From the NCBI RefSeq assembly GCF_007859945.1, contig NZ_SJPQ01000002.1, positions 1,218,279-1,282,278 of the forward strand: a stretch of DNA of 64,000 bases, read 5' to 3'. Made by a program: the position numbers and the translations under genes. Positions within the stretch are counted from its first letter, which is position 1; every line of letters starts with the position of its first letter. This document shows, in pieces, positions 22,542 through 37,104 of the stretch. The notes below the pieces were generated by a model. It was not told the DNA's origin. It saw nothing but the letters and a program-made list of their open reading frames with translations, and made no database searches. Source of the stretch: Pseudobythopirellula maris. GTDB taxonomy: Bacteria > Planctomycetota > Planctomycetia > Pirellulales > Lacipirellulaceae.

Positions 22542-23815
22542 AGCTCCGCATGGTCGGCTGCTCGCACCACCTGTCCGACGCCTCGGTCCGTGAGCGGCTC
22601 TCGTTCACGGCCGACGAGGCGGCCCACGCGCTGGGCTCTTGGCGCCAGAGCCACGACGGCGGCGAGGCCGTGCTGCTCTCCACCTGCAACCGGGTGGAGT
22701 TCTACGCCGCTTCGTCGAGCGACCGGCTGCCCCCGTGCCCCGGGCTGATCGCGCGGCTGATCGCCGACGCCCACGCGATGCCGCTCGACGAGGTCCGGCC
22801 GCACCTCACCACGCTGCGCGACGAGGAGGCCGTCGACCACCTGTTCCGGGTGGCGGCGAGCCTCGACAGCATGGTGCTCGGCGAGCCGCAGATCGCCGCC
22901 CAGGTGAAGCAGGCGTACGAGTCGGCCACCGCGGCCGGCGCCACGGGGCCGCTCACCCACGCCTGCTTCCAGTCCGCCCTGCGGGCCGCGCGGCGGGTGG
23001 CGGGCGAGACCTCGCTGCACTCGCACCGCGTGAGCGTGCCGAGCGTGGCGATCGCCGACTTCGCCTCGCGCGTGTTCGAGCGGTTCGACGACAAGCGTGT
23101 GCTGGTTGTCGGCGCGGGCGAGATGGCCGAGGAAACGCTCCGCTACCTGGTCGACCGGGGGGCTTCGGCCCCCTGCATCGTGAACCGCAGCCCGCAACGC
23201 GCCGCGCGGCTGGCGAGCGAGTGGGGTGGGACCGCGGCGCCGTTCGATCGGCTGGTCGACGAGTTGGCCCGCGCCGACCTGGCGATCGGCGCCGCCGGCT
23301 GCGACGAGCCGCTCGTCTCGGTCGGCGCGTTCCGTCAGAGCGTGGCCCCGGTGCGGGCCGAGCGGCCGCTGTTCCTCTTGGACCTGGCCGTGCCGCGCAA
23401 CTTCGACCCGGCGATCGGCGACGAGCCGGGCGCCTTCCTCTACTCGATCGACGACCTGTCGGCCGCGTGCGAGCGCAACCGCAACGCCCGCCGCAAGGAG
23501 CTGCCCCTGGCCGAGCGGATCGTGGCCGAGGAGCGCGAGCGGTTCTTCGCCGACGCCCGGCGGCGGATCTCGGCGCCGGTGATCGCGCGGCTGCGCGAGG
23601 GGCTCGAGGGGCCCAAGAGCGAGGAGCTCGGGAGGCTCTTCAACAAGCTGCCCGAGCTCGACGAGCGGGAGCGCCGTGAGATCGAGCGGTTCGCCGACCG
23701 GCTGGTCGGCAAGATGCTCCACCCGCCGATGGAGTCGATCCGCGAGGAGTCGCTGGGCGGCACGCCGCACTCGTTGCTGCAAGCCCTCAGCCGGCTGTTC
23801 AAGCTGCACGACTGA
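22538..23815 (+). CDS. hemA: Glutamyl-tRNA reductase
   Basis: A 425-residue enzyme that reduces glutamyl-tRNA(Glu) to glutamate-1-semialdehyde with NADPH, the first committed step of the C5 tetrapyrrole pathway. LLSTCNRVEFYA carries the nucleophilic Cys. The signature ASLDSMVLGEPQIAAQVKQAY is intact. An NADPH-binding RVLVVGAGEMAEETL stretch and the C-terminal dimerisation helices (about 310-420) complete the fold. It is translationally coupled to the CcsA/HemX-like gene. No other haem genes are close. Confidence 0.96.
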   Translation: MKLRMVGCSHHLSDASVRERLSFTADEAAHALGSWRQSHDGGEAVLLSTCNRVEFYAASSSDRLPPCPGLIARLIADAHAMPLDEVRPHLTTLRDEEAVDHLFRVAASLDSMVLGEPQIAAQVKQAYESATAAGATGPLTHACFQSALRAARRVAGETSLHSHRVSVPSVAIADFASRVFERFDDKRVLVVGAGEMAEETLRYLVDRGASAPCIVNRSPQRAARLASEWGGTAAPFDRLVDELARADLAIGAAGCDEPLVSVGAFRQSVAPVRAERPLFLLDLAVPRNFDPAIGDEPGAFLYSIDDLSAACERNRNARRKELPLAERIVAEERERFFADARRRISAPVIARLREGLEGPKSEELGRLFNKLPELDERERREIERFADRLVGKMLHPPMESIREESLGGTPHSLLQALSRLFKLHD

Positions 23816-23897
23816 CGGGTGTCGGCGGAATCGTCGCTCCGGGCGACCAGCATTCTAGCCGACGGGCTCTCGCGGTAATGGGCGCTCGGGGGGACGC

Positions 23898-24413
23898 TCA
23901 GTCCTCGTCCTCCTCCTCATCTTCGTACTCGTCGTCCTCGTAGTCGTCGTCGTCGTACTCCTCGTCCTCGAATTCCTCTTCTTCGAATTCCTCGTCGTCT
24001 TCCTCTTCGAGGTCGTCGTCGGCGTCGACTTCATCACCCTCTTCGTCGTCCTCGTCCTCGTCTTCTTCGTCCTCGTACTCGTAATCGTAGTCTTCGTCTT
24101 CTTCCTCGCCCTCTTCGACCTCTTCCCAGTCGTCGTCGTCCTCGTCCTCATCGTCCTCGACGTCGTCTTCTACCTCGTCGTCGTCCTCGTACTCCTCATC
24201 GTCGTCGTCTTCATCTTCGTATTCATACTCGTACTCGTCGTCTTCGTCCTCGTCGTCGTCGACCACCTCGTACTCGACTTCCTCCTCGTCCTCGATCGGC
24301 GCCCAAGCAAGCGGCGCGTCGGCCGTGACCAGCGTGCTGGTCACGTCATCGCACGTGGCGCCCAGGGCGATCGGATCGGCGGCGGTCAGGCGGGGAGAAA
24401 CGACAAGACTCAT
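23898..24413 (-). CDS. Hyperacidic Asp/Glu/Tyr-rich protein
   Basis: A 171-residue protein. The first 40 residues are ordinary (MSLVVSPRLTAADP, LVTADAPLAWAP). From residue about 41 to the end it is nearly all Asp and Glu, with Tyr, Val and a few Phe/Trp inserted (EYEYEYED, DYDYEYED). It has one Arg, at residue 8, and no Lys or His. The start and stop are clear, and codon use varies between GAC and GAT and between GAG and GAA, so it is not a simple trinucleotide expansion. Possible roles are cation (Ca2+) binding or mimicry of nucleic acid, but neither is shown. It is transcribed away from hemA's end and sits downstream of scpB in the same direction. Confidence 0.7.
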   Translation of the reverse strand: MSLVVSPRLTAADPIALGATCDDVTSTLVTADAPLAWAPIEDEEEVEYEVVDDDEDEDDEYEYEYEDEDDDDEEYEDDDEVEDDVEDDEDEDDDDWEEVEEGEEEDEDYDYEYEDEEDEDEDDEEGDEVDADDDLEEEDDEEFEEEEFEDEEYDDDDYEDDEYEDEEEDED

Positions 24414-24519
24414 AGTGGTGCTCGCTTAAGCAGGAAATTAGCCGAACGGGTTCCGCCGGTAGAACGCTGTATCGAAGGGGAAGATCGGGCTGCGTGGCGC
24501 TCGGAGCCCGCCGGGGGGC

Positions 24520-25182
24520 TCAGGTCACCGGTTCGTTGACTTTTGTCGGCTGGCGCCTTCGCGCCAGTTCATCCGATCGCGGGAGGTCTTCGAGTTTACG
24601 CAAGCCGTAAAGTTCGAGGAAGCGTTTGGTAGTGCCGTACAAGAGAGGTCGGCCCAACTCCGCCGATCGGCCGACGATACGCAAAAAATCTTGTTCCATC
24701 AACTGCCTCAGCAGATCGCCGCAGCCGACCCCGCGGATCGCCTCGACCTCGGCACGCACGACCGGCTGCCGGTAGGCGACGATCGAGAGGGTTTCTAGCG
24801 CGGCGCCCGTCGGCCCGTGGCCCCGGTCGGCCCTCGATTTCGCTTCAGGGCCCCTTCCCAGTGGGGAAGCCCCGTTCGAATCGGCCCCACCGCCCCGGTC
24901 TGTCGAGTCGGGCGCGATTTTTGCTATCCACGCGGCCAACGCGGGCCGTGTCAGCAGTCGGCAGCCCCCCGCCACACGCTCCACGCGGAATGCCGAACCT
25001 CGGGCCGCGTACAACGCGTCGATCTCGTCGACCAGCGCCCGCGCTTCGGTGGCGTCTTCCAGGCTCGCCAGCTGGGCCATTTTCTTCAGCGTGAGCGGCT
25101 CGGTGGCGAGCAGCAAGATCGCCTCGAGCCGTGCCCGCCGCGACGTCCGCGGCGCCTGTACGGGCGGCTCGGCAGGTCGCAC
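24520..25182 (-). CDS. scpB: Segregation and condensation protein B
   Basis: About 220 residues. Two winged-helix domains are visible: LEAILLLATEPLTLKKMAQL starts the first, and ALETLSIVAYRQPVVRAEVEAIRGV, the ScpB hallmark, starts the second, ending with GRPLLYGTTKRFLELYGL. ScpB works with ScpA and SMC in chromosome condensation and segregation. A low-complexity Gly/Ser linker (GGGADSNGASPLGRG) separates the domains. The start is uncertain: GTG at 25182 avoids overlap, while an in-frame ATG at 25320 would overlap the upstream gene by 22 bases. scpA is not adjacent. Confidence 0.85.
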   Translation of the reverse strand: MRPAEPPVQAPRTSRRARLEAILLLATEPLTLKKMAQLASLEDATEARALVDEIDALYAARGSAFRVERVAGGCRLLTRPALAAWIAKIAPDSTDRGGGADSNGASPLGRGPEAKSRADRGHGPTGAALETLSIVAYRQPVVRAEVEAIRGVGCGDLLRQLMEQDFLRIVGRSAELGRPLLYGTTKRFLELYGLRKLEDLPRSDELARRRQPTKVNEPVT

Positions 25183-25298
25183 GTGTGGCCGGCTGGCGGG
25201 GCCGTCGCTGGGGCAAGGTGTGGTTAACCACCGACGCGGCTGGGCCGGCCTCCAGGCGTGGGGCAATCGTGCAGGAGCGAGTTGTCGGCTGGCGCCCC

Positions 25299-25874
25299 TC
25301 ACCGCTCCCCCACCGACCATGCCCGCACTTCCACGGCGAGCGCCTCGGCCGCAGCCTCGGGCGTGGCGCCGAAAGCGTCGAAAACCCGTCGCGCGCCGTC
25401 GTGGGGGACCACGCATTTAGCCCGGTGCAGCGTTCCGCCGTCGCCCCACGGCGTGGTCTCGAGCTGCACGGCGCCCAAGGCTTGCAAGGTTTGCTCGGCG
25501 CCTGTGGCGGCCGGCGGGGCGTTTGCGATCGGCGCCAAGGCGCTCGCCGGCGTCACCTGCGAGTCGCGGTGCGTGCCCCATGGTTCGCTGCTGGTCGTAT
25601 CGGCTAGGAGCTCGCCACTCGGCAGCGAGGGCGCCGCTGCCGATTCCTCCGCCGTCCCCAGCGGGAGCCCGTCGATCGCCACGAGCTCGGCGGGGGGCGT
25701 GTCGCCCCCGAGCGCGGCCGTCGCCGCCTCGACCCCTTGGTCGAGCCATTCGGCCAGTTGCTCGGCGGGCGGGCCGTAGCGATAGGCGGCCATCGACCCC
25801 ACGGCGAGTGTGCCGAGCATGATCGCCAGGCGGGTGAGCGTTTGCAGCGGGTTGGTCTTCGGTGTGTTGGGCAT
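25299..25874 (-). CDS. Membrane-anchored protein of unknown function
   Basis: A 191-residue protein with one N-terminal hydrophobic segment (LAIMLGTLAVGSMAAYRYG). The rest is Ala- and Thr-rich, and the C-terminal part has a compact region with RAKCVVPHDGARRVFDAFG. No recognised domain is present. It lies upstream of scpB on the same strand and could be cotranscribed with it. Confidence 0.6.
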   Translation of the reverse strand: MPNTPKTNPLQTLTRLAIMLGTLAVGSMAAYRYGPPAEQLAEWLDQGVEAATAALGGDTPPAELVAIDGLPLGTAEESAAAPSLPSGELLADTTSSEPWGTHRDSQVTPASALAPIANAPPAATGAEQTLQALGAVQLETTPWGDGGTLHRAKCVVPHDGARRVFDAFGATPEAAAEALAVEVRAWSVGER

Positions 25875-26023
25875 CGGACGCGGCTTGGGAACAAGAAGGC
25901 GAGGGCCGTGCGCCGAGGGTCCGGCGCAGCGACCGTCCGCTCAGAGCGCCCGAAGGCTATCGCCGCGGGGCCAAGGCGGGCAACGCCAGTTTGCGGCCCC
26001 GCCCCACCACGGGGCGCCCGGCC

Positions 26024-26029
26024 TATAAT
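26024..26029 (+). promoter_or_regulatory. Possible -10 element (TATAAT)
   Basis: A perfect TATAAT lies only 8 bases before the ATG at 26038. No good -35 element is found 16-18 bases upstream. If used, the transcript would be nearly leaderless. Confidence 0.35.
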
Positions 26030-26037
26030 CGATCCCC

Positions 26038-27219
26038 ATGGAGCCGATCTACCTCGACCACAACGCCACCGCGCCGATCTTGCCCGCCGTGGCCGACGCC
26101 GTGCGTGATGCACTGCTAGCGTTCCCCGGCAACGCCTCGAGCCAGCACGGCCCGGGCCGCGACGCCAGGCGGCGGCTCGAAGCCGACCGGGAACGGGTCG
26201 CGGCGATGCTGGGCGTCGATACCGCCGGCCCCCGGCCCGACCGGTTGATCTTCACCAGCGGCGGCACCGAGTCGAACAACCTCGCCCTACGCGGCGTGGT
26301 CGAGCCGCTGCTGCGGGCCGGGCGGCCGGCGCGGCTGATCGTCTCGGCTGTTGAGCACCCGAGCGTCATGGAAACGGCTTCGCGCCTCCGCGAGCGCGGC
26401 TGCCGGGTCGATCTCTTGCCGGTCGACCACGAGGGCGTGGTGAGGCTCGACACGCTCGACGCCCTGCTGGCCGAGCCGGCCGGGGAGAGCGAGACGCTGG
26501 TGAGCGTGATGCTGGGCAACAACGAGACCGGCGTGCTGCAGCCGATCGAGGAGATCGCTCGCCGCTCGCGCGAGGCGGGCGCGCTGTCGCACACCGACGC
26601 GGTGCAGGCCCTCGGCAAGGCGCCGGTCGACTTCCGCCGGCTCGGCGTGTCGATGCTCTCGCTCACGGCCCACAAACTCCACGGCCCGGTGGGTGTGGGT
26701 GGATTGCTTGTCGAAAGCGGGTTGAAAACCCCGGAGCTGCTCAGCGGCGGCTGGAGCAACGACCGGCCGGGCACCTCGCCCGTGGCCTTGGTGGCGGGCC
26801 TCGCCGCCGCGCTCGAGGCGGCCCACAACGATGCGGGGCGACCCGCACGGATGCGCGGGTTGCGCGATCGGTTCGAGTCGCTCGTCACGGCCGCCGACCC
26901 GCAGGCGGTGGTCGTTGGGGCGGGGGCTGCAAGGCTGCCGCACGTGGCGAACATCGCATTTGTGGGGCTCGATCGACAGGTTATGCACATGGCGTTGGAC
27001 CGCGAAGCGATCGCCTGCTCGACCGGTTCCGCTTGCGCCAGCGGGTCGAGCGAGCCCTCGCCGGTGCTCACCGCCATGGGAGTCGACAACCGCGTGGTGG
27101 GGGGGTCGCTGAGGTTCAGCCTGGGGGCCCTCACCACGGAGCGGGAGGTCGACGAGGCGGCCCGGCGTATCTCCCTTGTTTGCAAGCGTTTACGGGGCTG
27201 CGAAAGCGGCCGAAAATAG
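26038..27219 (+). CDS. Cysteine desulfurase
   Basis: A 393-residue PLP enzyme of the NifS/IscS type that takes sulfur from cysteine for Fe-S clusters or tRNA thiolation. The N-terminal IYLDHNATAP, TSGGTESNNLAL, VEHPSVMET, SHTDAVQALGK and SLTAHKLHGP (PLP Lys) motifs are all present. The active-site Cys is in ACSTGSACASGSSEPS, a long loop as in group I enzymes. No scaffold gene (iscU/nifU) is adjacent, so the choice between IscS and NifS is open. Confidence 0.93.
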   Translation: MEPIYLDHNATAPILPAVADAVRDALLAFPGNASSQHGPGRDARRRLEADRERVAAMLGVDTAGPRPDRLIFTSGGTESNNLALRGVVEPLLRAGRPARLIVSAVEHPSVMETASRLRERGCRVDLLPVDHEGVVRLDTLDALLAEPAGESETLVSVMLGNNETGVLQPIEEIARRSREAGALSHTDAVQALGKAPVDFRRLGVSMLSLTAHKLHGPVGVGGLLVESGLKTPELLSGGWSNDRPGTSPVALVAGLAAALEAAHNDAGRPARMRGLRDRFESLVTAADPQAVVVGAGAARLPHVANIAFVGLDRQVMHMALDREAIACSTGSACASGSSEPSPVLTAMGVDNRVVGGSLRFSLGALTTEREVDEAARRISLVCKRLRGCESGRK

Positions 27220-30641: not shown

Positions 30642-33170
30642 ATGACCGACGCCAACAACGAGAATCACATCGCCGGCGAGTACGGCGAGAAGGACCTCGA
30701 GCACCTCTCCGACCTGGAGCACGTGCGCGAGCGCCCCAGCATGTACATCGGCGACACCACCTCGCGCGGCCTGCACCACCTGGTGTACGAGGTGGTCGAC
30801 AACTCGATCGACGAGGCGATGGCCGGCCACGCCTCGGAGGTGACCGTCACGATCAACGCCGACGACTCGGTCACGGTCGAGGACGACGGCCGCGGCGTGC
30901 CGGTCGAGAAGCACGCCCAGCTCTCCGAGCAGATGGACCGCGAAGTCAGCACGCTCGAGGGCGTGATGACCGTGCTGAAGTTCGGCGGCAAGTTCACCAA
31001 GGGCGCCTACCAAACCTCCGGCGGCTTGCACGGCGTCGGCGTCACGGTCGTGAACTTCCTGTCGGAGTGGGCCGAGTGCGAGGTCTGCCGCGACGGCGGC
31101 GTCCACCACCAGGAGTACGAGCGCGGCGTGCCGAAGGGCCCCGTCCGCCGGGCCGGCTCGAGCGACAAACGCGGCACCAAGACCACGTTCAAGCCCGATC
31201 CGCAGATCTTCCAGGTCACCAAGTACAGCTACTCCACTCTGCTCAAGCGGCTCCAGGAGCTGGCGTTCCTCAACAAGGGCGTCAAGATCACGCTCTCCGA
31301 CGCCCGCACCGGCGAGAGCGAGTCGTTCCAGTACGAAGACGGCATCCGCGAGTTCGTCACCCACCTGAACCGCGCCAGCGACACCGTCCACCCGGACGTG
31401 CTGCACATCCAGGGCGAGTCCGAGGGCGTCGAGATCGAGATCGCCTTGCAGTATTCCGGCGAGTACACCGAGAACGTTCACACCTACGTGAACAACATCA
31501 ACACCACCGAGGGCGGCACGCACCTCAGCGGTTTCCGTTCGGCCCTGACGCGCACGATCAACGCGTACGGCAAGAAGGAAAACCTGTTCAAGGACCTCAC
31601 ACCCTCCGGCGAGGACGTGCGCGAGGGGCTCACCGCCGTGATCTCCTGCCGCGTGCCGCACCCGCAGTTCGAGGGCCAGACCAAGACCAAGCTCGGCAAC
31701 TCCGAGGTCGAGGGGATCGTCAACACGCTCTTCGGCGAGTACCTCACCAAGTTCTTCGAGGAGAACCCGCGCACCGCCAAGGCGATTGTCCGCAAGAGCC
31801 AGCTGGCCGCCGAGGCCCGCGAGAGCGCCCGCAAGGCGCGGCAGCTCATCCGCGAGCGCAAGGGCGCCATGGGCGGCGGCAGCTTGCCCGGCAAGCTCCG
31901 CGACTGCTCCAGCCGCGAGGTCGACAAGTGCGAGCTCTACCTGGTGGAGGGCGACTCGGCCGGCGGCCCGGCCGAAGGCGGCCGGCGCCGCGAGTTCCAG
32001 GCGATCCTGCCGCTGCGGGGCAAGATCATCAACGCCTACAAGTCGCGCGACGACAAGGTCCTGGCCAACGAAGAAGTCCGCAGCATGATCGCCGCCATCG
32101 GCGCCGGCATCGGCGTCGAGCAAGACATCGACAAACGCCGCTACGGCCGCGTCGTGATCATGACCGACGCCGACGTCGACGGGTCGCACATCCGCACGCT
32201 GCTGCTCACCTTCTTCTACCGGCAGATGTACGACCTCGTGGCCAAGGGGCACGTTTACGTCGCCCAGCCGCCGCTGTTCCGCGTGCGTCGCGGCAAGGAG
32301 CCGGCCCGCTACGTGCAGACCGAAGAAGAGATGCGCACACAGCTGCTCGACCTGGGCCTCGGCGACTCGGTGTTCGACGCGGGCGACGGCCAGCTCATCG
32401 AGGGCGACGCGATGTCGCGCCTCGTCCGCACACTCGCCGCCATGGAGGAGGCGATCCTCCAGCTCGAACGCCGCGGCGTGTCGCTCAAGATCCACGCCGA
32501 GCGGCTCGACCCGGCCAGCGGCAAGCTGCCGGTGTTCCACGTCTTCCTCTCTGGCGAGGAGCACTGGTTCACCAGCCGGGCCGACCTCGACGCCTTCATC
32601 GAGGAGCAGGAGAATGCGTCCGACGGCGCGCTGCTGATCGACGCCGGCCCCGCCGCCCTCGGCTCGCAGGGCGACTCACAAGACGACGACTCCTCCTCGG
32701 CGACCGGCGAGTCGGCGACCGAAGACCCCTCGAAGGTCCGCCGCCTGCGGGTGGTCGAGATGCACGAGGTCCGCACCATCAACACGATGCTGCAAGACCT
32801 CTCGAAGCTCGGCTTCGAGATCGACGCCCTCATCCCGCTCGAGCGGACCGGCGAAGAGAACAGCCGATACGTGTTGCGCCGCGGCGAGAACGAGACCGGC
32901 CTCGACGATCTCCGGGGCCTGCCGGCCGCCATCCGCGCCGCCGGCGAGAAGGGCCTGCAGATCATCCGCTTCAAGGGCCTCGGCGAAATGAACGCCGAAG
33001 AACTCCGCGACACGACGCTCGACCCCGCTGCCCGCACGCTCCTAAGGGTCACAATGGAAGACGCCGGCGCCGCCGACGATTTGTTCCGAGTGCTGATGGG
33101 CGACCAGGTCGAACCGCGGCGTGATTTTATTCAGAAGCACGCGCTGGATGTTAAGAATCTGGATGTGTGA
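30642..33170 (+). CDS. gyrB: DNA gyrase subunit B
   Basis: An 842-residue type II topoisomerase ATPase subunit. The GHKL ATPase domain shows YEVVDNSIDEAMAGH, VEDDGRGVPV and TSGGLHGVGVTVVN. The TOPRIM domain starts at about residue 430 with LVEGDSAGGPAEGGR and has MTDADVDGSHIRTLLL. The C-terminal GEMNAEELRDTTLDP and RRDFIQKHA motifs are intact. Between about residues 560 and 690 there is an extra, partly acidic region of the kind found in Gram-negative GyrB. gyrA does not follow; a low-G+C island does. The last 45 bases are duplicated downstream at 33361-33405. Confidence 0.97.
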   Translation: MTDANNENHIAGEYGEKDLEHLSDLEHVRERPSMYIGDTTSRGLHHLVYEVVDNSIDEAMAGHASEVTVTINADDSVTVEDDGRGVPVEKHAQLSEQMDREVSTLEGVMTVLKFGGKFTKGAYQTSGGLHGVGVTVVNFLSEWAECEVCRDGGVHHQEYERGVPKGPVRRAGSSDKRGTKTTFKPDPQIFQVTKYSYSTLLKRLQELAFLNKGVKITLSDARTGESESFQYEDGIREFVTHLNRASDTVHPDVLHIQGESEGVEIEIALQYSGEYTENVHTYVNNINTTEGGTHLSGFRSALTRTINAYGKKENLFKDLTPSGEDVREGLTAVISCRVPHPQFEGQTKTKLGNSEVEGIVNTLFGEYLTKFFEENPRTAKAIVRKSQLAAEARESARKARQLIRERKGAMGGGSLPGKLRDCSSREVDKCELYLVEGDSAGGPAEGGRRREFQAILPLRGKIINAYKSRDDKVLANEEVRSMIAAIGAGIGVEQDIDKRRYGRVVIMTDADVDGSHIRTLLLTFFYRQMYDLVAKGHVYVAQPPLFRVRRGKEPARYVQTEEEMRTQLLDLGLGDSVFDAGDGQLIEGDAMSRLVRTLAAMEEAILQLERRGVSLKIHAERLDPASGKLPVFHVFLSGEEHWFTSRADLDAFIEEQENASDGALLIDAGPAALGSQGDSQDDDSSSATGESATEDPSKVRRLRVVEMHEVRTINTMLQDLSKLGFEIDALIPLERTGEENSRYVLRRGENETGLDDLRGLPAAIRAAGEKGLQIIRFKGLGEMNAEELRDTTLDPAARTLLRVTMEDAGAADDLFRVLMGDQVEPRRDFIQKHALDVKNLDV

Positions 33171-33175
33171 CGATC

Positions 33176-33190
33176 GAACCACGAAGGAAC
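33176..33190. repeat. Short intergenic repeat GAACCACGAAGGAAC
   Basis: The 15-base word after gyrB recurs exactly at 63905-63919 after the last gene of the window. It is a short dispersed repeat. Confidence 0.4.
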
Positions 33191-33206
33191 GAAGGACACG
33201 AAGTTT

Positions 33207-33356
33207 GTAGGATGGGTGCTCGCACCCATCTTCCCGGCAAGCGCTAAATGGCCGCAACCGAGCACCAGGCGGCTGAGCCGACGGTCGATCCTCCTGCTGC
33301 CGCCATGCCTGAGATGACGCCCGCTATCCGAAGTTGGGTGCAAGCACCCATCCTAC
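33207..33356 (+). mobile_element. 150-bp palindromic-ended element, left copy flanking the low-G+C island
   Basis: GTAGGATGGGTGCTCGCACCCA at the left end pairs with the right end (complement GTAGGATGGGTGCTTGCACCCA) with one mismatch in 22 bases. Each end is itself a hairpin (TGGGTGC/GCACCCA). A second copy lies inverted at 35374-35517. Shared internal blocks include aaatggccgcaac (33246-33258) and gagccgacggtcgatcc (33276-33292). It encodes nothing and looks like a non-autonomous mobile element. Confidence 0.7.
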
Positions 33357-33360
33357 GCAC

Positions 33361-33405
33361 TTTATTCAGAAGCACGCGCTGGATGCTAAGAATTTGGATG
33401 TGTGA
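33361..33405 (+). repeat. Duplicate of the gyrB 3' end
   Basis: These 45 bases match 33126-33170, the last codons of gyrB including TGA, at 43 of 45 positions. One change alters Val to Ala and the other is silent at a Leu codon. The copy is separated from gyrB by the palindromic element and is joined directly to the low-G+C island. Confidence 0.85.
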
Positions 33406-33479
33406 AGTATATAGTCACGCCGTAGTATTAATCCAATGTTTCACATACATCTAGTATTAACATATACGGGGGGTCAGCA
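33406..33479 (+). promoter_or_regulatory. AT-rich leader of the island operon with direct repeats
   Basis: The segment between the gyrB-tail copy and the ParA-like gene is strongly AT-rich. TAGTATTAA occurs twice, at 33423-33431 and 33452-33460, in direct orientation 29 bases apart. These may be operator sites or part of the promoter. GGGGGG at about 33468-33473 could serve as ribosome-binding site. Confidence 0.4.
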
Positions 33480-34505
33480 ATGGCGCGCGTTGTAACTTTG
33501 TACAACAATAAAGGTGGGGTATCTAAGACTACCACTCTTTTTAATTTAGCTGTATATCTTTCGCTACATGGTAAACGTGTATTGATAGCAGATTGCGATC
33601 CACAGTGTAATGCCACGGAACTATTCTTTTCATCTTCAGATACTTACTCCGAGCCGAATGTTGAATTGCCCGGTACAAGCGTCTATCAAGCACTGTTGCC
33701 ACGATTTAAAGGCGAAGCAAAGACAATTGATCCGGATGCAATCAGTCTTGTCACCTCAGAGTTGTATCCGAGATTAAGTCTTTTGCGTGGAGACCTGGAG
33801 TTTAGTTCCGCAGAGAATTATTTCGGAACAGCATGGAACCAATCGATAACAGAAAACATTAATGAGAAGAACACGTATGTAGTAATGCATCGTATGCTGC
33901 GATCGTTAGCATCACATTACGGATATGACTATGTGCTGTGCGATGTAGGACCAAGTACTGGCGCTATTAGTCGTACTGTTATGCTAGCATCCGACGGATT
34001 TATTCTACCCCTGACGCCGGACAGATTTTGTTATCAAGCGGTACGTGTATTGGGAACGATAATCAGGGAATGGATGAATAGGCATGACGAAATTATCAAG
34101 ACATTCCAGCCGTATGGGGTAGATACCTTTCCAGGAAACCCAATGCTGTTCGGCGCCGTAATACAGAACTTTAAAATGCATGGTGGGAAGGTAAAAGAGT
34201 CTTATACTAAATGGCAGGAAAAAATATCCGAGTCTATATCAAGTGATTTGCTTGGAGGGAATGGTGTAACAGCAGGTCCTAAATGTAACCCGAAATCGCC
34301 CTATGTAGCGAATATGCGAGATGTGGGACCATTGGCTCCAGTAGCACAAATGTTTGGACGTGCGATATTCGATATACAGCAAGAACATACGGAAGCAGCT
34401 TCTTCAGGAGGAAATAAATACTATGGAGTAGTGTGGGCTAACTGGGTAGAACGCATGCATGAATATGAAGAGCAAATATCATCATTAGCCGAGGCGATAC
34501 AGTGA
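33480..34505 (+). CDS. ParA/MinD-type ATPase of a two-gene island
   Basis: A 341-residue P-loop ATPase. The deviant Walker A reads KGGVSKTT (residues 11-18), with Ser in place of the usual Gly, and Lys11 and Lys16 kept. ADCDPQCN (37-44) is the switch I/A' motif, and YDYVLCDVGPSTG around Asp155 is Walker B. LPLTPDRFCYQAVRVLG follows. ParA proteins dimerise on ATP and position DNA or protein cargo; some act in defence islands. No ParB or parS is present. Base composition is low (21 G/C of 60 at 33541-33600) against about 70% in gyrB, which indicates transfer. The stop overlaps the next gene's start by four bases (GTGA), so the two products are probably made together. Confidence 0.88.
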   Translation: MARVVTLYNNKGGVSKTTTLFNLAVYLSLHGKRVLIADCDPQCNATELFFSSSDTYSEPNVELPGTSVYQALLPRFKGEAKTIDPDAISLVTSELYPRLSLLRGDLEFSSAENYFGTAWNQSITENINEKNTYVVMHRMLRSLASHYGYDYVLCDVGPSTGAISRTVMLASDGFILPLTPDRFCYQAVRVLGTIIREWMNRHDEIIKTFQPYGVDTFPGNPMLFGAVIQNFKMHGGKVKESYTKWQEKISESISSDLLGGNGVTAGPKCNPKSPYVANMRDVGPLAPVAQMFGRAIFDIQQEHTEAASSGGNKYYGVVWANWVERMHEYEEQISSLAEAIQ

Positions 34506-35179
34506 AAGACCCTGAGTATGTATACGCCGCTTTACTAGATATACTCGGGTACCGGGCTTTTCTTCGGCGAGACGAGGAGAAAGGCGCAGTTGAATTTCGG
34601 CATACGATGGAGAGTGCGCTGTCGAAGCTTGATGATGTAGGAAAAGATTACAGTGTACAAGCGATTTCAGATACGGTAATAATTACTAGAGCGGAGCATA
34701 ATACGGGGCATGAGTTTATAGAGCTTGTTAGAAAAACTATAGTTGCATTCCTTAAAGAGGGAGTACTTGTTCGCGGTGGAATCACATATAACAACCACTA
34801 TAAAAACGGCAATGTAACATATAGCCCTGCATTAACGCGGGCGTACGAAATAGAAAATAAAGAAGCAATATATCCACGTGTTGTTGTAGACGAGAATGTT
34901 CTTAGGATGTTAGAGCGAGACGACGGTACTATTCCAGAGCTCAGTGGAAAGATATGCCGACAGAATGGTGTGCACTGGATAAACATTCTACATGGGGAGG
35001 ATGCACAGGAGATCTGGGACGCAGCAAAAAAAGTATACTTAGAATCTAGGGACACATTGTATAGGCAGGAATCTGCTCACATGAAGCATTGGTGGCTACA
35101 AGAGTATTTGTGGAGCGTGGCTAACGGAGAAGGTGAAAAACTAGAACGGTACGTTTCATCCCCAGTCGTGATAGAGTGA
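34502..35179 (+). CDS. Class III nucleotidyl cyclase-like protein, partner of the ParA-type ATPase
   Basis: A 225-residue soluble protein starting at GTG. It shows the layout of a class III cyclase homology domain: LLDILGYRAFL with Asp13 at the first metal position, AISDTVIIT with Asp57 at the second, and LVRGGITY at 89-96 followed by TYSPALTRAYEIE. The Asn/Arg pair that stabilises the transition state in true cyclases is not obvious (TRAYE instead of N..AR), so it may bind a nucleotide without cyclising it, or use another chemistry. No transmembrane or effector domain is seen. Composition is low (23 G/C of 60 at 34801-34860). The ATPase gene overlaps it. The resemblance is by eye and moderately certain; the function is unknown. 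Confidence 0.7.
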   Translation: MKDPEYVYAALLDILGYRAFLRRDEEKGAVEFRHTMESALSKLDDVGKDYSVQAISDTVIITRAEHNTGHEFIELVRKTIVAFLKEGVLVRGGITYNNHYKNGNVTYSPALTRAYEIENKEAIYPRVVVDENVLRMLERDDGTIPELSGKICRQNGVHWINILHGEDAQEIWDAAKKVYLESRDTLYRQESAHMKHWWLQEYLWSVANGEGEKLERYVSSPVVIE

Positions 35180-35278
35180 GCCGGGTGCCATGGCCACGCT
35201 TGTCGTGGCCATGCGAACCAGGGAAATATCACCAACACGCGCCATGCCCACGCTACCGCGTGAGCATGGCGCCCGGCT
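35179..35278. mobile_element. 100-bp palindromic element with CATGGCCACG hairpins
   Basis: The ends agccgggtgccatg (35179-35192) and catggcgcccggct (35265-35278) are inverted copies with one mismatch. Inside the left half, CATGGCCACG/CGTGGCCATG form a 10-bp stem; the right half holds gccatgcccacg and cgtgagcatggc. It abuts the stop codon of the cyclase-like gene. Confidence 0.65.
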
Positions 35279-35279
35279 T

Positions 35280-35817
35280 CACAACGGTTTATCCACGCGG
35301 CGGCACCACACACAAACACAATTCGCTCTTACGCGGACTCCGCGTCAGCCACAGCCTGACCTACCTTGAGTGAGTAGGATGGGTGCTCGCACCCATCTTT
35401 GGATTACGAGCGACCTATCACGCTGGGAAGCTGCAGACGGATTGATCGTCGGCTCGGCCGTATCGCGCTTGCGTTGCGGCCATTTGGCGTTAGCCGAGGA
35501 GATGGGTGCGAGCACCGATCTCCCCGGCCTCTTAACCGGGCGCCATGGTCGCTCCACGCCATTGGGCATGACCTCAAAGTGCGTTCCGGCCCGCGACTAT
35601 TGATCACAAGGCGTCATCCACTCGGAGGCGCCGGGCGCCACGAGCGTTAAGCGGTTGCAAGCGCGCGTCGACTCTATCGGCGCCTCTCAGTGGCGGTCAA
35701 TTTTGGTGTTCCGGGGTGATATCGTTGGACACCCCCGATCGCGCCCAATTAGGATGGCCATTCGATAGAAGTAAGTCACTGATCCCCCAAAAGACGCACA
35801 CCACCGACGGCCCGCTA
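35280..35817. other. Gene-free region right of the island
   Basis: After the CATGGCCACG element this stretch returns to ordinary composition. It contains the inverted element at 35374-35517, a partial gccgggcgcc palindrome near 35540-35640, and a lone TTATCCACG at 35289-35297. No gene is supported before the ATG at 35818; upstream frames look like shadows. Confidence 0.45.
35374..35517 (-). mobile_element. Inverted second copy of the 150-bp element
   Basis: Reading the minus strand gives the same order of blocks as 33207-33356, including aaatggccgcaac (here 35473-35485) and gagccgacgatcaatcc (35439-35455, two mismatches). The left outer end GTAGGATGGGTGCTCGCACCCA is intact; the other end breaks off after ggtgcgagcacc. 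Together the two copies bracket the low-G+C island in opposite orientation. Confidence 0.7.
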
Positions 35818-37104
35818 ATGATCCACAGACTCACCGCCGCGCTTGCGGCTGCGCTCTCCTGCTATTTCGTGCTGACAGGAGCAGCGGAAGGGCAACAATT
35901 GCGTTTCGAGTGGGCGGCTCAGATCGCCACCAACGAGATCGAGCGGGCCGAGGCGTTGGCCTTCGATGCGGTCGGCAACGTCTACGTCACCGGTGTGACG
36001 CAAGGCCTCTTGGGCGACACGGCCTACGGCACGCAAGACGTGTTCATCACGAAGGTCTCGCCCTCGGGCTCCTTGCTGTGGTCTCAACAGATCGGCAAGG
36101 CGGGCGCCAATGTGGCCGGCGACGTGGCGATAGACGCCGACGGCAATGTGATTGTCGTGGGATCGTTCGGCGTTCCCAGCCTCACCGACAAGGCTTTCTT
36201 TATCCACAAGGTGTCGCCCTCGGGAGAAACGCACTGGACGCAGCAGGGCGTCTACCCGCCCGGCTCTCTGGCCTACGGGGTGGCGGCCGATGGCGACAAC
36301 AACATCTACGTGACCGGCGAGATCGACGACCCGGGCAATAGAGACATTTTCTTGTACAAAATCTCCGAGACGGGCGGCCTTCTTTGGGCGCGGCTGATGG
36401 GAGAGGCCGAAGGCAGCCGCGGCTCCGACATTGCGATCGATAGCGCGGGGAACCCGGTGATCACCGGCACGGTCTGGGGCGGGGAGACCGACGGGTACGA
36501 CGCCTTCACGTCCAAGTTCAATGCGGCGGGCGATTTGCTCTGGGGACAACGCGTCGGCACGCAATTCGACGACGAGGGCCTCACCCTCGCCATCGATGGT
36601 CAGGACAACATCGTCGTAGCCGGGAATTGGGGCCAAGGCGATTCGGCCGCCTCGGGCTCGCAGCCCGTGGTCTGGAAGCACGACCCGGCCGGAGACTCCT
36701 TGTGGTTCAACCAATACGAGGGGTCGGGAGAGGGAGATACTGTGCGCGGGCTCGCTATCGATTCCGACAATGGCGTTTACTTCGTAGGAGCCACCTCGGG
36801 CCAAGTGGGACCCACGCAATTCGGCGGGGTCGACGCCTACCTCACGGCCCTCTCCCCCGACGGCGACGGGCTGTGGGCGTCTCAGTTCGGATCGTGGAAC
36901 TACGACGAGGCCAACGCGATCGGAGTGTTCAACGGCGACGAGTTTTACCTGGCGATCACGTCCGCCTCGGGGCTGGCGGGACCGAGTCTCGGGCTGACAG
37001 ACGTTTTCCTCATCAAGTATGTCGCCGTGCCCGAGCCCGTCTCCTCGCTCCTGATCGGCTTGATGGCGTGCGTTCTAGTCACCCGTCGCCCCGCCGGGCG
37101 CTGA
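35818..37104 (+). CDS. Secreted SBBP beta-propeller protein with PEP-CTERM tail
   Basis: A 428-residue protein. A signal peptide (LTAALAAALSCYFVLTGAAEG) is followed by repeated units of about 50 residues, such as AEALAFDAVGNVYVTGVTQG, GDVAIDADGNVIVVGSFG and LAIDSDNGVYFVGATSG. This is the SBBP (beta-propeller repeat) pattern. Segments like TKVSPSGSLLWSQQIG alternate with them. The C-terminus VPEPVSSLLIGLMACVLVTRR is a PEP-CTERM sorting tail. It is probably exposed on the cell envelope; no enzymatic role is visible. The ATG at 35818 starts the signal peptide. Confidence 0.85.
   Translation: MIHRLTAALAAALSCYFVLTGAAEGQQLRFEWAAQIATNEIERAEALAFDAVGNVYVTGVTQGLLGDTAYGTQDVFITKVSPSGSLLWSQQIGKAGANVAGDVAIDADGNVIVVGSFGVPSLTDKAFFIHKVSPSGETHWTQQGVYPPGSLAYGVAADGDNNIYVTGEIDDPGNRDIFLYKISETGGLLWARLMGEAEGSRGSDIAIDSAGNPVITGTVWGGETDGYDAFTSKFNAAGDLLWGQRVGTQFDDEGLTLAIDGQDNIVVAGNWGQGDSAASGSQPVVWKHDPAGDSLWFNQYEGSGEGDTVRGLAIDSDNGVYFVGATSGQVGPTQFGGVDAYLTALSPDGDGLWASQFGSWNYDEANAIGVFNGDEFYLAITSASGLAGPSLGLTDVFLIKYVAVPEPVSSLLIGLMACVLVTRRPAGR

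Follow-up and report, generated by a model that had tools for sequence, protein, structure and literature searches.

A hyperacidic reading frame beside scpB2 in Pirellulales, probably a detachable tail of an SMC–ScpAB subunit

A hyperacidic reading frame downstream of scpB2

In the window analysed here, meaning the whole 64-kb stretch of DNA, a reading frame encoding 171 aa lies on the minus strand at 23898–24413 (read from 24413 to 23898). The first-pass annotation had placed it correctly without giving its strand, and had described a product of this length with one Arg and no Lys or His, which was borne out by our residue count. The protein consists of a variable N-terminus (residues ~1–40) and a polyanionic tail (residues 41–171) that is predicted to be disordered. 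In the tail, previously described as nearly all Asp and Glu with Tyr, 106 of 131 residues (81%) are Asp or Glu, 11 are Tyr and one is Trp. The whole product contains 57 Glu, 53 Asp (110 Asp/Glu in total), 11 Val and 11 Tyr, with a computed pI of ~4.05 and a computed net charge of about −109. Each acid uses both of its codons, as had been reported (GAC 45, GAT 8, GAA 22, GAG 35), and inspection of the sequence revealed no hydrophobic start. Among 303 stop-to-stop frames of at least 100 aa in the 64-kb window, this frame is the most acidic at 63%, versus 19% in the runner-up. It had no match in Pfam, NCBIfam, PHROGs, PADLOC or PDB sequences; the ScpB profiles PF04079 and TIGR00281 likewise left it unmatched, whereas both matched its upstream neighbour.

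This neighbour, scpB2 (24520–25416, minus strand), encodes a paralogue of the SMC–ScpAB subunit ScpB (PF04079, E 8.6e-42; TIGR00281, 89.9 bits at a cut-off of 89.2) and is separated from the acidic frame by 106 nt (24414–24519, minus strand). From the opposite side, hemA converges on the acidic frame. No sigma-70-like promoter was found in 23750–26100, which says little because shuffled sequences are expected to hold merely 0.2. Upstream, a 191-aa minus-strand frame without Pfam or NCBIfam match (25299–25874) overlaps the scpB2 frame. Beyond the scpB2/hemA region, at 27.4–33.2 kb, lie frames that we take from their sequences to be DnaA-like, DnaN-like and GyrB-like. Past the GyrB-like frame there is an AT-rich island (33480–35179; GC 51–59% in 32001–36000, flanks mostly 64–70%), which holds a ParA-like ATPase (33480–34505, PF13614) and an overlapping frame without Pfam match (34502–35179) and may be an insertion. 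The closest relatives of the HemA of the source genome are from Botrimarina (69–72% identity), placed by NCBI in Pirellulales, Lacipirellulaceae; "order" in our surveys denotes Pirellulales, a label derived from these HemA relatives.

As low-complexity sequence, the frame could also be no gene at all; the space separating scpB from hemA would then be filled by a GAN-type trinucleotide repeat open by chance. As a test of coding we compared same-genus pairs of separate acidic frames with at least 70% identity over at least 80 aligned codons. Fourteen pairs passed, which are not independent, as six of them come from four genomes of one genus (g28). Third-position differences exceeded the sum of first- and second-position differences in 14/14 pairs, and dN was below dS in all 13 pairs with an estimate (ratio ~0.08–0.53), dS being saturated in the fourteenth. 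The check proposed in the first-pass annotation came out positive: orthologues exist and keep the frame, and acidity is conserved while residue order is not, apart from one short motif, Trp-Glu-Glu-Val (WEEV). By these comparisons the frame is coding, and selection acts on its composition and on a single motif. The substitution pattern, a WEEV frequency far above that in shuffled tails and the 44 of 126 loci at which the stretch is fused in frame to ScpB rule out the non-gene reading, to which we assign a negligible probability.

Linkage to scpB2 and fusion to ScpB

In a survey anchored on hemA, 21 of 30 family loci carried an opposite-strand hyperacidic frame immediately beyond this gene, or 23 of 30 by a different criterion that also counts truncated frames. 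The first-pass annotation had named hemA and scpB together as landmarks. Only scpB proved to be the constant partner; hemA is a neighbour in part of the family. At six loci where hemA is not beside scpB2 (L118, L125, L127, L130, L135 and L136) the acidic frame stays with scpB2, and a partnership with hemA was rejected. The survey also brought up two features absent from that annotation, the WEEV motif and fusion to ScpB: at L068, L075 and L077 the acidic stretch, including WEEV, forms the C-terminus of ScpB itself. Fused forms consist of ScpB plus an acidic tail, and the frame in the window is the separate form.

We then anchored the searches on scpB in overlapping sets of 43 family, 97 order and 118 class genomes, scoring an acidic stretch where Asp and Glu made up at least 55–60% of 40 residues. 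The order count comprised 126 ScpB2 loci from 125 genomes (G083 contributes two), after exclusion of G033 and G067 (no match), G032 (ScpB2 at a contig end) and G027, G109 and G122 (a single weaker match each, ScpB1-like by score). Of these Pirellulales loci, 77 carry a separate frame, 44 a fused tail (L252 being classed as fused) and two both, and three run off the contig end. The acidic stretch was therefore present in 123/123 evaluable loci. Loci lacking the frame or showing frameshifts had been named earlier as grounds for doubting the gene; none of the evaluable loci lacks it, and the frame is interrupted in one, L141 (G023), which we counted as separate and whose WEEV-bearing piece lies on another contig (L057).

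All 79 separate frames (the 77 plus the two from loci with both forms) lie downstream of scpB on its strand. The gap has a median of 42 nt and a maximum of 466 nt, at least 74 of the 79 frames fall within 300 nt, and 19 abut or overlap scpB; these sizes hinge on the first possible start codon. By coordinates, the gap is 120 nt at L149 and 48 nt at L146. Because the frames are spread about evenly over the three phases relative to scpB (25/25/29), programmed frameshifting or readthrough from scpB was rejected. The frame in the window, 106 nt downstream of scpB2 on the same strand and with WEEV, falls within this ScpB2-associated family. As a family finder, a similarity profile proved insensitive: run on the 118 class genomes, it matched two of the 22 Pirellulales genomes listed and gave four matches in all, of which L342 and L343 are acidic proteins without WEEV, whereas gene order found the stretch in every evaluable locus. 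The family shows that a conserved gene can evade similarity search and yet surface by gene order.

Of 20 families, 7 contain both fused and separate forms, as do two genera, g32 and g48, the latter case being a single genome, G083, which has a fused and a separate copy. On a quick tree built from 118 ScpB2 cores (L146 and L149 left out), parsimony counted at least 15 switches between the forms, only two of which are forced by well-supported branches; an earlier tree of 165 rows required 14. A stretch that is found now in cis, now in trans with one and the same subunit classically points to a functional partner.

The WEEV motif and the taxonomic spread of the tail

The WEEV motif (residues 96–99; codons at 24117–24128, minus strand) is the only conserved run of residues in the protein. 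In an alignment of 21 orthologues with 35–51% identity to the window protein, WEEV and one further Glu were invariant. Across the order, 114 of 122 tails contain the motif (73 of 78 separate ones, not counting L141, and 41 of 44 fused ones), versus a mean of 1.25 and a maximum of 7 of 122 in 500 rounds of shuffling. Its median position, 0.55 of the way along the tail, is close to the midpoint; the flanking positions mostly hold Asp or Glu, and the second residue after the Val is Asp in 100 of the 114. The eight misses comprise three fused tails, of which two are cut off by the contig end and one has WQEV, two separate tails with WVEV from the family to which the window belongs (L127 and L135) and three tails of family f17 (L217, L219 and L259), which show repeated Asp/Glu-Trp units instead. 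Family f7 has a second motif, F-[SC]-W-x-E-L-[PS]-E, near the N-terminus of the separate frame in 10 of 11 loci (L249, L251, L253–L258, L260 and L261).

AlphaFold2 predicted no structure for the window protein (mean pLDDT 51.8); the highest block, residues 91–100 with pLDDT 59, holds WEEV, which is no more than a weak hint. For the fused protein of L068 the ScpB core folds, with 3w6j as the best Foldseek match of the model (E 6.3e-16; ScpB fold). Since its tail stays at pLDDT 40–52 (52 at WEEV), in an alignment whose tail region is spanned by only 3 of 17 rows, AlphaFold2 gave no confident placement of the tail on ScpB.

The source genome encodes two ScpB, one ScpA and one SMC protein scoring over the cut-off. 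The two ScpB paralogues lie at 24520–25416 of the window and at G000:C2:1190536-1191024. Exactly two ScpB matches were found in 89 of 97 order genomes; outside the class, 54 of 55 genomes of the phylum have one and the remaining genome none. A quick tree built from hand-picked rows, 28 single ScpB proteins included, placed ScpB1 (31 rows, support 98) and ScpB2 (40 rows, support 92) each on one side of a branch. A ScpB1–ScpB2 heterodimer is possible; Nse1–Nse3 of Smc5/6 is such a heterodimeric pair of KITE subunits. Elsewhere the ScpB2 profile picks up ScpB1 as well; it had no match in 29 of the 118 class genomes. At least 20 of these belong to family f21, and as all the non-matching genomes listed are of f21, ScpB may be lost or strongly altered in that family.

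The acidic tail was absent from all 31 ScpB1 proteins read (highest acidic fraction of any window 0.25). From the class outside the order we read 40 hand-picked loci out of 62 matching genomes: four have acidic ScpB tails (L273, L285, L287 and L288) and 36 have no strongly acidic stretch, L275 reaching 0.53 and L274 0.47. From the phylum we read 30 loci out of 58 matching genomes, two of the 30 belonging to the class; the acidic fraction reaches 0.53 in one ScpB tail (L330) and 0.57 in one neighbouring frame (L304). WEEV occurred in none of the 40 class loci outside the order and in none of the 28 phylum loci outside the class, in any frame. As the WEEV tail was not found in these loci outside the order, it is not generally needed by SMC–ScpAB.

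Together, the fused and separate forms, the presence of the stretch in every evaluable locus and the WEEV motif suggest that the acidic frame very probably encodes a detachable polyanionic tail belonging to one of the SMC–ScpAB subunits. Judged from sequence and gene order, the protein is very probably part of the ScpB/SMC system.

Candidate roles and known systems

SMC complexes are near-universal chromosome motors. As a whole, the explanation that we lean towards is that of a disordered polyanionic accessory of SMC–ScpAB, a detached ScpB2 tail that would compete with DNA. The acidic protein would be made together with ScpB2, and ScpB2, WEEV or both would recruit it to the SMC complex; the charge of the tail would there mimic DNA and compete at the DNA-binding sites of the KITE subunit, the kleisin or the SMC heads, so that capture or release of DNA could be tuned. 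Coding selection, the constant link to scpB2, the fused and separate forms, WEEV and predicted disorder support this explanation. Against it stand the lack of predicted docking on ScpB, the small share of switches that are forced (2 of 15), the absence of the WEEV tail from the loci read outside the order, the three tails that have neither WEEV nor a near variant of it (L217, L219 and L259) and a passage of PMC7055376 that calls DNA binding by ScpB unclear. Taken by itself, the mechanism of a DNA-like polyanion at the DNA sites of the SMC complex is drawn by analogy and seems to us to fall slightly short of probable.

DNA mimicry and binding of basic proteins had both been among the uses suggested by the first-pass annotation, and either would fit a ScpB2 context. 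In the second case, the ScpB2-borne polyanion could act like a histone chaperone, stripping or holding basic nucleoid proteins so that SMC loads or moves on compact DNA. Disordered acidic tails without sequence conservation, such as this one, suit a role of this kind, and the link to an SMC subunit would place the polyanion on the chromosome; however, the two HU-family proteins of the source genome have no long lysine-rich tail, and an HU protein of that type was set aside as the partner. We consider this role unlikely.

The tail might instead pair with a basic N-terminal extension of ScpB2, keeping it soluble or auto-inhibited. Such autoinhibition by D/E repeats is described for HMGB1 (PMC10250230), and the last 60 residues of the ScpB2 extension have a median net charge of +8 (range −7 to +22; 106 of 126 order sequences placed by pattern, with uncertain start codons). 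Yet a basic extension is also found in class members without a WEEV tail (medians +5 in f22, +8 in f23 and +8 in f26), so the two do not go together. The arm, which is not specific to tail-bearing genomes, was rejected as the matching partner of the tail; both the pairing and a chaperone-like role stay live rivals, and we rate the pairing as the less probable of the two.

Ca2+ binding, another of the uses first suggested, gained no support. EF-hand and RTX sequences are the canonical Ca2+ loop patterns; the window protein has neither, and among the 122 tails an EF-hand-like pattern occurred in four and an RTX pattern in none. High charge by itself would be compatible with binding of Ca2+ or Mg2+, or with general charge buffering unrelated to SMC, but the constant link and fusion to ScpB2 also speak against such a function, which we regard as very unlikely.

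Literature searches on ScpB in planctomycetes or Pirellul*, on ScpB paralogues or acidic tails and on hyperacidic planctomycete proteins returned no report of the gene among the matches listed. The closest known family is ScpB itself (PF04079/TIGR00281), a KITE subunit: the partner gene encodes an ScpB whose fold matches the solved 3w6j and 4i98, whereas the acidic frame by itself does not qualify as ScpB. Six solved sequences of ScpB type were found, all of them constructs (92–219 aa), and none of these constructs is described as tailed.

By analogy, the nearest functional likeness is to T7 gp5.9, an acidic DNA mimic that acts on a KITE-bearing bacterial SMC complex, MukEF, by blocking the DNA cleft of its KITE subunit MukE (PMC7617805). 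As described there, gp5.9 is a folded coiled-coil dimer and a phage-encoded inhibitor, whereas the acidic protein is predicted to be disordered, is host-encoded and occurs order-wide beside ScpB2. A broader proposal, speculative and in our view improbable, would be that in Planctomycetia the role of ScpB is split between two ancient paralogues, possibly a heterodimeric KITE pair like Nse1–Nse3, and that in Pirellulales one of the two partners acquired a DNA mimic, either built in or detachable, which docks through WEEV and controls how the SMC motor captures DNA, a host-encoded counterpart of gp5.9.

The C-terminal region of the RNA polymerase delta subunit is similar in being a disordered acidic tail (net charge −47) that a folded domain attaches to a nucleic-acid machine and that displaces nucleic acid; it differs in serving another machine and in sharing a chain with its anchoring domain (PMC7749165). 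The D/E repeats of HMGB1 and other eukaryotic DNA-binding proteins are likewise disordered Asp/Glu tracts that act electrostatically; these are eukaryotic and act in cis, and the main text of PMC10250230 contains neither "bacteria" nor "prokaryot". A polyanionic partner that accompanies one ScpB paralogue throughout the order would offer a natural handle on DNA handling by ScpB, the point treated in the passage of PMC7055376, and its single conserved, docking-like WEEV motif adds to this value. Set against these systems, ScpB itself is known, and what appears to be new is the hyperacidic, detachable companion of an ScpB paralogue in Pirellulales.
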